A DNA stretch of 64,000 bases from NCBI GenBank assembly GCA_009693115.1, contig SHXW01000008.1, positions 1 through 64,000 of the forward strand, given 5' to 3'. This DNA is from Dehalococcoidia bacterium (GTDB lineage Bacteria > Chloroflexota > Dehalococcoidia > Lucifugimonadales > Lucifugimonadaceae). The notes under the pieces are model-generated. The model was given only the letters and a program-made list of their open reading frames with translations. It was not told the DNA's origin and ran no database searches. Below are positions 5,771-58,271 of the stretch, piece after piece (within the stretch, counting starts at the first letter, position 1; each line of letters starts with the position of its first letter). Both the position numbers and the translations under genes were made by a program.

Positions 5771-5803
5771 AACAGGAGCCCCGGACTGACCGGGGCTCCT
5801 GTT
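5771..5803. terminator. Bidirectional hairpin terminator
   Basis: Perfect 14-bp stem (AACAGGAGCCCCGG paired with CCGGGGCTCCTGTT) with a 5-nt loop, between the convergent amidohydrolase and DUF350-type genes. Only two T residues end the right arm and no longer T tract follows. Confidence 0.75.
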
Positions 5804-16063: not shown

Positions 16064-16100
16064 CAGAAAGGCCCCGATATATCGGGGCCTTTCTGTTTTC
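16064..16100. terminator. Rho-independent terminator after rplY
   Basis: Perfect 32-nt palindrome (CAGAAAGGCCCCGATA and its complement, 16064-16095) followed on the plus strand by TTTTC. It should work for rplY and keep transcription out of rny. Confidence 0.88.
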
Positions 16101-17864: not shown

Positions 17865-17949
17865 TGCTGCCCCCGCCCGCTTGAGCGGGATCCACGGCCC
17901 CTCACCGCACGCGAAACGGCGGGTTGGGTACGAAGGACGTTAAAAGGAC

Positions 17950-17998
17950 GTTAAGCAGGAGGGGCCCCGTATCCACCGGGGCCCCTCCTGCTTAACGC
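17950..17998. terminator. Strong hairpin after rny
   Basis: Perfect 20-bp stem (17950-17969 with 17979-17998) and a 9-nt loop. No T tract follows on the plus strand; on the minus strand the stem is followed by CCTTTTAA. Overlaps a short direct repeat (GGACGTTAA twice). Confidence 0.7.
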
Positions 17999-31254: not shown

Positions 31255-31593
31255 TCATACCGCCGTCTCATCGCGGTCACCGGTGCGAATGCGGTACACG
31301 GCCTCGACGCCCGTAATCCAGATCTTGCCATCCCCGATGTGGCCCGTGTGAGCGGAGGCGATGATGGCGTTGACAGTGTCGTCAGGCTTGTCATCAGTTA
31401 CAACTAGTTCGATCTTCAGCTTGGGTACGTACTCCACCCGGTACTGGACGCCTTGATACTCCTCGAACGATCCGGCCTGCTGGCCGAAGCCCTTCACTTC
31501 GGTGAGTGTCATGCCCTGGACACCAACGCGGATGAGGGCGTCACGGACGGGAGCAAGGCGTTGCGGACGGATGATCGCCGTGATCAGTCTCAT
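31255..31593 (-). CDS. glnB: Nitrogen regulatory protein PII
   Basis: 112-residue PII trimer subunit that senses 2-oxoglutarate and ATP/ADP and controls nitrogen enzymes or transporters. The start MRLITAIIRP at 31593 (GAGGTG upstream) gives the standard 112 length. The T-loop carries Y51 in EYQGVQYRVEYVP, the residue uridylylated in proteobacteria, and the C-terminal signature is GDGKIWITGVE. No amtB or glnA is adjacent, so glnB versus glnK cannot be decided. Confidence 0.93.
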   Translation of the reverse strand: MRLITAIIRPQRLAPVRDALIRVGVQGMTLTEVKGFGQQAGSFEEYQGVQYRVEYVPKLKIELVVTDDKPDDTVNAIIASAHTGHIGDGKIWITGVEAVYRIRTGDRDETAV

Positions 31594-31751: not shown

Positions 31752-31785
31752 GCACACCGGCCCCCGATTTTGGGGGCCGGTGTGC
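31752..31785. terminator. Strong hairpin between the 23-residue peptide gene and glnB
   Basis: Perfect 14-bp stem (GCACACCGGCCCCC with GGGGGCCGGTGTGC) and loop GATTTT. It lies 30 nt beyond the stop of the small peptide gene on the minus strand and would separate it from glnB. No T tract. Confidence 0.75.
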
Positions 31786-31814: not shown

Positions 31815-31886
31815 CTACTTCTTCTTCGCGGGCTTCTTTGCGGCCGGCTTGGCAGCGGGCTTCGCGGCGGGCTTCTTAGCAGCCAT
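31815..31886 (-). CDS. 23-residue Lys/Ala/Pro-rich basic peptide
   Basis: Short frame encoding MAAKKPAAKPAAKPAAKKP plus AKKK: nothing but Met, Ala, Lys and Pro. It has a textbook ribosome site (AAGGAG with a 6-nt gap), a promoter-like TATATA about 70 nt upstream beside a 20-bp palindrome, and a strong hairpin 30 nt downstream, so it looks like a complete gene. The composition equals the tails of bacterial histone H1-like proteins and of HU-type proteins, suggesting nucleic-acid binding. It could also be a remnant of such a tail. The longer frame upstream of this ATG crosses the promoter palindrome and is not believed. Confidence 0.6.
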   Translation of the reverse strand: MAAKKPAAKPAAKPAAKKPAKKK

Positions 31887-31956
31887 TTGAGGCTCCTTCA
31901 AAACGGGCCGCTCGGTGAGGATGGAATCGCGGCGTCTCGACAACGCCACTTGACGA

Positions 31957-31985
31957 TATATAGACCGCCGGGAGCGCTCCCGGCG
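31957..31985 (-). promoter_or_regulatory. Promoter with 20-bp perfect palindrome
   Basis: CGCCGGGAGCGCTCCCGGCG (31966-31985) is a perfect palindrome. Three bases on (minus-strand direction) lies TATATA (31957-31962), positioned as a -10 box for the 23-residue peptide gene. The palindrome covers the place of the -35 and would block or recruit polymerase if bound. TATATA is symmetric, so a plus-strand promoter is also possible. Confidence 0.5.
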
Positions 31986-32423
31986 ACGTCGCCCACCCTT
32001 CGGACGGACCCGGAGGGCCATGGCGTTCCATGGCCCAGCTAATCGAGAATGTTAGTGCGAGCCGTAGTGGCTAACAATGGGGGTGCTCCGCACATCGTCG
32101 CGACTTTTGAAATCCCGTGACGCGTTTTCGTATTCGCGCCGATAACGCGGCGGACCGCGGTTGAACTCGCGCCGCTCAATCAACGCGATTCAAAAAAATT
32201 GCCTGCGGCCCGGGGCCATGTGGCCAGATGTGTTGGGGAATAGATCGCGCGCCAAGTCGGAAAGAGGTTATTTCCCACTTCTCATGCAAGCACATCTGTC
32301 ACACCCCGCGCTCCGCGATGACGCACGCCCACAACCGGAGCGCGAAGCAAGGCCATCCTGAAGTCCCCACCCCTCGTTGGTGGGAAGGTTAGAGAGCGGG
32401 TGACGCCTGGCCGGGCCCGCGCA
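31986..32423. other. Intergenic region, AT-richer, no gene recognised
   Basis: Holds a TGTTAG...CTAACA inverted repeat (32050-32076) and several AT-rich patches (around 32100-32210). No ribosome-site-bearing frame or known RNA is visible. The last 40 bases are a weak CCCTC-type repeat next to the dehydrogenase 3' end. Confidence 0.45.
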
Positions 32424-33509
32424 TTACCGCAAGTCGCACTTGACCCCAATCTCAGCGCAGTACGACTCGTACCACTCGACAACCTCGTGGTGGTACGGGA
32501 TGCCCCGCTTCGAGCGTTCCTCGAACTCCTCATGCTCCGAGAGGCCCGGATAAAGCACGCGCTTGAACCCCGGCGCTGGCTTTGACCGTGCGAACGTCCC
32601 CAACATCCTGTCCATGTCGTCCTTGAACTTCTCAACGTCCGTGAACGCCTCGATGCTGTAAGCGCAGAAGAAGCTGCCGCCGGCATGGTCAAGCAATGGG
32701 CCGGGGCCCATCGAGGACAATTCATTGCAGAAGATCTCATTCATCACCGCTATGCCGTAGCCCTTGTGCGAGCCGTTCTCGCGTGTGCCGCCGAACGGCA
32801 GCATGTAGTAGGTGCCCGTCGGCGGAGCAGGGATCTCTTCGAGTATCGGCGATCCATCCTTCTTCGCTATCCAGCCCGGATAGATCTTCGCCCCAACGCG
32901 CCGGGCAAGCTCGATCTTGTTGCCTGCAACCTGAGTCGTGGCGACGTCAAACAGATACGGAGGCATCTTGCGCGCCGGCGCGGCCCAGGCGACGGGGTTC
33001 GTCCCAAGGAGAGGCTCCGCTCCGAAGGTGGGCACCGTCTGGTGGCCCCCGCCTGCCGTCATCATGTGACCGATCATGTCGTGCTGCACCGCCATGTGCG
33101 CGTAGTACCCGCACCCGGCCAGGTGTCCGGTGTTCATCAGCGACACCGCACCCATGCCGTGCTTCTTCGCCTTTTCGATAGCCATGTTCATGCACCACGC
33201 GCCGACCTCGGTGCCGAGGGCCATGTCGGCGTCTACGCGGGCGGTCGTACTCGTCTCTTTGACCACCTTCACCTTCGGCCTCGCGTTGATGCTTTTTTCG
33301 GCGTACTGGCGGACGTAGCGGCGCACGCCATTGGACACGCCGTGAGACTCGACTCCGCGCAGGTCGTTGGTGACAAGCACCTCAGCGCTGGCCTTCGCTC
33401 CCGCCGCGCTGACGCCGGAATGGCGGAGGACGGCCTCTGTGGCGGCCCTGATCTTTTCCTGTTTGACGTACACGCGGTCCTTTTCAGGGACGTGAAAGCG
33501 TTCGAGCAT
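32424..33509 (-). CDS. Ldh-family (malate/L-lactate/ureidoglycolate) dehydrogenase
   Basis: 361-residue NAD(P)-dependent 2-hydroxyacid dehydrogenase of the LDH2/MDH2 type (the YlbC/ComC fold), not the classical Rossmann LDH. Visible motifs: DLRGVESHGVSNG near residue 50 with the catalytic His, NTGHLAGCGYYA near 125, GTNPVAWAAP near 170 and GSHKGYG near 245. ATG 33509 is preceded by GGAGG at 9 nt. Divergent from the amidohydrolase at 33775. Substrate is probably a hydroxyacid from the surrounding catabolic cluster. Confidence 0.87.
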   Translation of the reverse strand: MLERFHVPEKDRVYVKQEKIRAATEAVLRHSGVSAAGAKASAEVLVTNDLRGVESHGVSNGVRRYVRQYAEKSINARPKVKVVKETSTTARVDADMALGTEVGAWCMNMAIEKAKKHGMGAVSLMNTGHLAGCGYYAHMAVQHDMIGHMMTAGGGHQTVPTFGAEPLLGTNPVAWAAPARKMPPYLFDVATTQVAGNKIELARRVGAKIYPGWIAKKDGSPILEEIPAPPTGTYYMLPFGGTRENGSHKGYGIAVMNEIFCNELSSMGPGPLLDHAGGSFFCAYSIEAFTDVEKFKDDMDRMLGTFARSKPAPGFKRVLYPGLSEHEEFEERSKRGIPYHHEVVEWYESYCAEIGVKCDLR

Positions 33510-51852: not shown

Positions 51853-51882
51853 GAGAAGGCCCCGCAAATGCGGGGCCTTCTC
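51853..51882. terminator. Terminator hairpin after tRNA-Val
   Basis: Perfect 13-bp stem (GAGAAGGCCCCGC with GCGGGGCCTTCTC) and 4-nt loop, 10 nt beyond the CCA end of the tRNA on the minus strand. No T tract. Confidence 0.8.
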
Positions 51883-53864: not shown

Positions 53865-53893
53865 AGCGGCCCCGCTGCAATAGCGGGGCCGCT
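53865..53893. terminator. Terminator hairpin of the rpoB-rpoC transcript
   Basis: 12-bp perfect stem (AGCGGCCCCGCT with AGCGGGGCCGCT), 5-nt loop, 27 nt past the rpoC stop. No T tract. Confidence 0.75.
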
Positions 53894-58202: not shown

Positions 58203-58271
58203 GCGTCCCGGGTGGCGGCGGGACGCTTGCCGCTTGTTGGAGGCCCGGCCCATTGGTTTGGGCCGGGCCTC
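58203..58271 (-). other. Two intercistronic hairpins between rpoB and rpoC
   Basis: Stem 1: 58240-58252 with 58259-58271, 13 bp perfect (GAGGCCCGGCCCA/TGGGCCGGGCCTC). Stem 2: 58203-58210 with 58219-58226, 8 bp. In the minus-strand transcript both fall between the rpoB stop and the rpoC start, with no T tract. They may be RNA processing sites or slow polymerase. Confidence 0.65.

Follow-up and report, generated by a model that had tools for sequence, protein, structure and literature searches.

Among bacterial proteins encoded by stand-alone genes, the ribosomal peptide bTHX is very short and strongly basic. Lysine-, alanine- and proline-rich sequence of the histone H1-like type makes up the C-terminal domains of AlgP and PhaF from Pseudomonas. 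In AlgP, a helical N-terminal domain of 124 aa is followed by a disordered C-terminal domain of 195 aa with 25 perfect KPAA repeats; peptides built of KPAA repeats can bind DNA in vitro, and the KPAA tail of AlgP works in the spacing of polyphosphate granules (PMC9239181). Chlamydial Hc2, which like other bacterial H1-like proteins is lysine-rich and has the composition of an H1 tail, is 165-237 aa long (PMC2848022). As far as found in the literature, every known KPAA or H1-like tract is the tail of a larger protein. We know of no stand-alone 23-mer of this kind.

The DNA analysed here, a single stretch of 64 kb referred to as the window, encodes such a peptide on its reverse strand. A frame of 23 codons followed by TAG (31815..31886, -) translates as MAAKKPAAKPAAKPAAKKPAKKK and contains Met, Ala, Lys and Pro only, as the initial annotation of the locus had stated. 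The likeness to an H1-like tail, also proposed there, is borne out by three perfect KPAA units (KPAAKPAAKPAAK): perfect KPAA repeats, Lys/Ala/Pro composition and expected disorder are shared with the C-terminal domains of AlgP and PhaF. However, AlgP has a helical domain ahead of its tract, whereas the window gene has none and the whole protein consists of 23 residues; Hc2, with its many lysine-rich pentamers, is far longer. Like bTHX, the peptide is very short, strongly basic and encoded by a stand-alone gene, but it differs from bTHX in composition, and no link to ribosomal genes was seen.

A 23-codon gene with its own translation signals

The start codon is preceded at a distance of 6 nt by the Shine-Dalgarno sequence AAGGAG (31893..31898, -), in agreement with the ideal spacing claimed for it. 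With the codon usage of the window as reference, the 23-aa ORF scored +0.50 bits per codon; neighbouring genes average 0.15-0.37. No other run of ten or more A/K/P codons occurs in any frame of the window. A strict scan, which required AAGGAG, ATG, a length of 10-41 aa, at least 60% K+A+P and at least 25% K, returned this ORF (31886..31815) as its single match in the window and no match in the reversed window plus 5.6 Mb of reversed loci. Folding of the 251-nt region gave a z of -6.2. Searches of Pfam and NCBIfam and of solved structures with the 23-aa peptide returned no match. The codon score and the strict scan, empty in reversed sequence, uphold the earlier view of a real, self-contained gene, which we regard as very probable.

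The frame remains open upstream as far as an ATG at 32021, giving an ORF of 68 aa. The 45 additional codons score -0.27, the other frames of the same stretch score alike (-0.27), and the intergenic mean is also -0.27. An open frame of 45 codons arises by chance with p 0.28, and the sequence before the ATG at 32021 has no Shine-Dalgarno motif. The 68-aa ORF was rejected on the grounds of its non-coding upstream codons and its expected openness, and on these grounds, together with the missing Shine-Dalgarno sequence, 31886 is most likely the start of the gene. The initial annotation had allowed that the frame might be the end of a longer, decayed H1-like gene; the non-coding score of the sequence ahead of it speaks against this.

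The three KPAA units are encoded by AAGCCCGCCGCG, AAGCCCGCTGCC and AAGCCGGCCGCA, and all differences between them lie at third codon positions. These differences amount to at least 4 changes; with a silent share of 0.28 among random changes, p is ~0.006 if the changes are independent. Because the units differ only at third positions, the pattern, in a small sample, argues for selection on the peptide over a DNA repeat. Since no orthologue of the window gene was found, its conservation evidence consists of these internal repeats.

Elements flanking the gene

A TATATAT sequence (31956..31962, -) lies upstream as a candidate -10 region, next to a perfect 20-bp palindrome, CGCCGGGAGCGCTCCCGGCG (31966..31985, unstranded), which is a candidate operator or RNA hairpin. 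Both elements had been pointed out before and both are present; the promoter and operator roles implied for them found no support. A consensus scan detected no sigma-70-like promoter near the ORF, so the TATATA box is unproven as a promoter. The genome holds no second exact copy of the palindrome; the nearest sites comprise one with 1 mismatch and others with 3 mismatches, and GC palindromes of this type were not seen upstream of other microgenes.

Downstream, a hairpin with a perfect stem of 14 bp and a loop of 6 nt (31752..31785, -) probably marks the 3' end of the unit. The stem described earlier is thus confirmed; its designation as a terminator is weaker and an interpretation, since there is no T-run on either side. 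The window contains 7 perfect stems of at least 11 bp, against 0.2 expected from shuffles, and 6 of the 7, this one included, have no T-run. With these counts the hairpin looks ordinary for the genome, and hairpins of this sort look like normal intergenic elements in it. Further GC-rich perfect-stem hairpins are located at 5771-5803, 16064-16095, 17949-17997, 51853-51882, 53865-53893 and 58240-58271; mostly devoid of a T-run and far more frequent than by chance, the GC-rich hairpins of the window may be U-less terminators.

The next gene downstream on the same strand encodes a P-II signal protein (31255..31593, -; Pfam PF00543, E 5e-27) and probably lies outside the microgene unit. The upstream neighbour belongs to the malate/L-lactate dehydrogenase family (32424..33509, -; Pfam PF02615). 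Rfam matches in the window are limited to two tRNAs.

Comparable microgenes in the order and class

BLAST-type searches with DNA or peptide are weak on low-complexity sequence, and we therefore searched relatives in the order and class with patterns joining a Shine-Dalgarno sequence, a start codon and a K/P/A motif. Since every count of microgenes rests on such patterns, the numbers are lower bounds. With the first pattern, 12 of 250 genomes of the order matched, 4 of them with K/A/P microgenes. Many matches were discarded as long proteins or as out of frame, and the match in G010 proved to lie in the tail of ribosomal protein L13 and not in a microgene. That protein (L004 1469-2149, -) carries a long K/A/P-rich C-terminal extension.

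Altogether, SD-led K/P/A microgenes of 10-35 aa were found in 18 other genomes of the order and class. The same family contributed MPTPSKPAKKPAAKPTKKK (G020, at a different locus) and the same order MTTRPAPKPAAKPAARPAAKPAAKPAAKPAAKPGRR (G049) and MAHHEKPAAKPAGGKAAPAAKPSAPAAKPAAPKKK (G245), along with microgenes in G094, G095, G096, G098, G099, G101 and G154; elsewhere in the class they occur in G259, G260, G272, G285, G295, G306, G314 and G350. AAGGAG or AAGGAGG precedes nearly all of them and AGGAGG a few, and long hairpins follow 8 of 15 comparable loci. Some of the peptides contain Cys (MRCKKASKPAPKKK, MATQTKPAAKPAATPAKPKKGCCC). The distribution is patchy. Absence from close relatives had been named as an argument against the gene, and within the family it carries some weight: G020 alone among ~76 genomes, none of the same genus, has a comparable gene, and at another locus. 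Across the order and class, tiny K/P/A genes do recur.

Tandem arrays and a winged-helix regulator

A core group of these peptides, exemplified by MAKQPSKPAPKKK and MFKSKPPAKPAPKK, ends in KPAPKK(K). In G095, G096, G098, G306, G350, G260 and G094 the microgenes stand in tandem, as 2-3 copies ~85-120 bp apart, and the arrays close with a long, strong hairpin. Of the 12 copies in one genus, 9 code for one and the same 13-mer, MAKQPSKPAPKKK. The six variable sites among these nine copies are all third positions, a count that is partly circular because the copies were grouped by identical peptide; the contrast with their diverged flanks (35% identity over 40 nt downstream, 57% over 25 nt upstream) is not circular. 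A literature search for the KPAPKK motif returned a single match, an unrelated paper on a fish antimicrobial peptide.

At 10 of ~19 loci, from 10 genomes in six families, the microgenes are accompanied by a divergently transcribed regulator of the MarR-like winged-helix type (Pfam MarR_2/HTH_24, ~105-128 aa), for example at L211 7096-7404 (-), L252 6027-6410 (-) and L253 2650-2919 (+). The regulator always points away from them, with a shared region between. In L253 and L254 this region holds a perfect AT-rich palindrome of 16 bp, ATGTATAATTATACAT, ~130 bp before the first microgene, and in L216 another, ATGATATATATATCAT, lies ~149 bp before it; both are candidate operators. An ORF of ~120-129 aa without a known family lies between regulator and array at L211 7518-7904 (+) and in L212, L214 and L275; in L211, L212 and L214 it stops just before the first Shine-Dalgarno sequence.

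The window gene has in common with the arrays (e.g. L211, L251, L252) an SD-led, K/P/A-dominated ORF of no more than 35 aa, a downstream hairpin and membership of the same order or class. The array peptides, of 10-24 aa, end in KPAPKK(K), however, whereas the window peptide ends in KKPAKKK, and the array genes are often tandem (~105 bp apart), whereas a single copy of the window gene was found in both window and genome; singles also occur elsewhere. No homologue of the MarR-like regulator was found anywhere in the window genome. Judged by its sequence, the window gene appears to be of the same kind as the KPAPKK microgenes; its membership of the array family is unproven because it has neither the KPAPKK ending nor tandem copies nor the regulator, and low-complexity similarity cannot prove descent.

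Proposed function and alternatives

As the best explanation, which we hold with slightly better than even confidence, a genuine microgene gives rise to a free, disordered, polyanion-binding polycation of 23 residues. Translation of the SD-led ORF would release an intrinsically disordered peptide that would accumulate in the cytoplasm. Its lysines, spaced by Ala and Pro, could bind the chromosome, RNA or polyphosphate in the manner of detached H1/AlgP-type KPAA tails, and the bound peptide would act as a counter-ion or compacting agent. Polyanion binding is suggested by the composition and by the precedent of KPAA peptides, and as the function of the peptide we consider it an even bet. In relatives, shorter KPAPKK peptides would follow the same design, tandem arrays would raise the dose and the divergent winged-helix regulator would be part of the arrangement.

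An alternative is a ribosome- or RNA-associated peptide that, like bTHX, would sit on rRNA instead of DNA and stabilise ribosomes or RNPs. Size, charge and the strong Shine-Dalgarno sequence fit small ribosomal peptides in general, and the tail of L13 in G010 is a very similar K/A/P stretch. But no microgene locus examined shows a link to ribosomal genes, the solved-structure search gave no match and a patchy distribution ill suits a core ribosomal component, so that we judge this role unlikely. Larger proteins often carry K/A/P tails, and the ORF might also be a functionless remnant or have broken away from the tail of an H1-like or ribosomal protein, as its open frame up to the ATG at 32021 would allow. 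Such an origin is quite improbable in view of the non-coding codon usage and chance openness (p 0.28) of that upstream frame, the ideal Shine-Dalgarno sequence, the synonymous KPAA differences and the lack of any parent-gene fragment adjoining the 23-aa ORF.

Behind the short ORF stands a strong hairpin, and ~160 nt further on a regulatory gene begins on the same strand, an arrangement in which translation of Lys, Pro and Ala codons might govern the hairpin and hence read-through into the P-II gene. Yet the P-II loci of relatives have no K/A/P ORF, for which reason the reading as a P-II leader was rejected, the predicted fold (a single MFE structure) contains only the hairpin and no antiterminator that would compete with it, and arrays elsewhere (L211, L270) are closed by a strong hairpin beyond which the next gene runs on the other strand; attenuation is accordingly very improbable. 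We give hardly any credence to a secreted or exported cationic peptide with an antimicrobial or signalling role. The peptide is indeed cationic, short and proline-containing, and Cys is found in some comparable peptides, but it has neither a signal sequence nor a hydrophobic face, and nearby no gene for export, maturation or immunity was recognised.

The free polycation thus remains our preferred reading. HU (PF00216) was not found in the window genome or in 19 of the 21 other genomes searched, and was found in 9 of 14 control genomes. Replacement of HU by the microgene peptide was set aside as not discriminating: some relatives in which no microgene was detected lack HU too, and its loss therefore does not explain the peptides.

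More broadly, and only tentatively, we suggest that members of the order and of its class, probably the Dehalococcoidia (Chloroflexota), use ultra-small Lys/Pro/Ala proteins of 10-35 residues as dedicated polyanion counter-ions. Their genes would be SD-led and often arrayed beside a winged-helix regulator of their own, with the window gene as a KPAA-type representative. If so, few conserved stand-alone proteins of bacteria would be shorter than the K/P/A proteins. Free-standing versions of 10-35 residues would be routinely missed, since they fall below most annotation cut-offs and, being of low complexity, escape BLAST and HMM searches. Provided that they are translated and abundant, such peptides would be minimal organisers of the nucleoid, RNA or polyphosphate; with tandem arrays and a conserved regulator, the idea lends itself to direct testing.

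Further small basic reading frames

Two tiny K/P/A ORFs also turned up outside the class, among many long H1-like proteins in named genomes, both in MAGs, one alphaproteobacterial and one clostridial (L111, L089). Viral contigs (L334, L346, L374, L405 and others) carry tiny SD-led K/P/A ORFs as well, for example MSEKKPAPKKKR and MPSYSGPKKPQKPAPKKKKGGKKK; some apparently belong to tailed phages, where they neighbour genes for head and packaging functions. Small basic proteins of another kind, beginning with MAKGQNAKKEQKKPKKKKEKK or MPQGRVPKREAKKPKKK, SD-led and 33-48 aa long, are encoded at L330 1512 (-) and L304 1513 (-), in reverse-complement coordinates. Near the microgene of G285 lies a gene for a collagen-repeat protein (L268 5868-6479, -).
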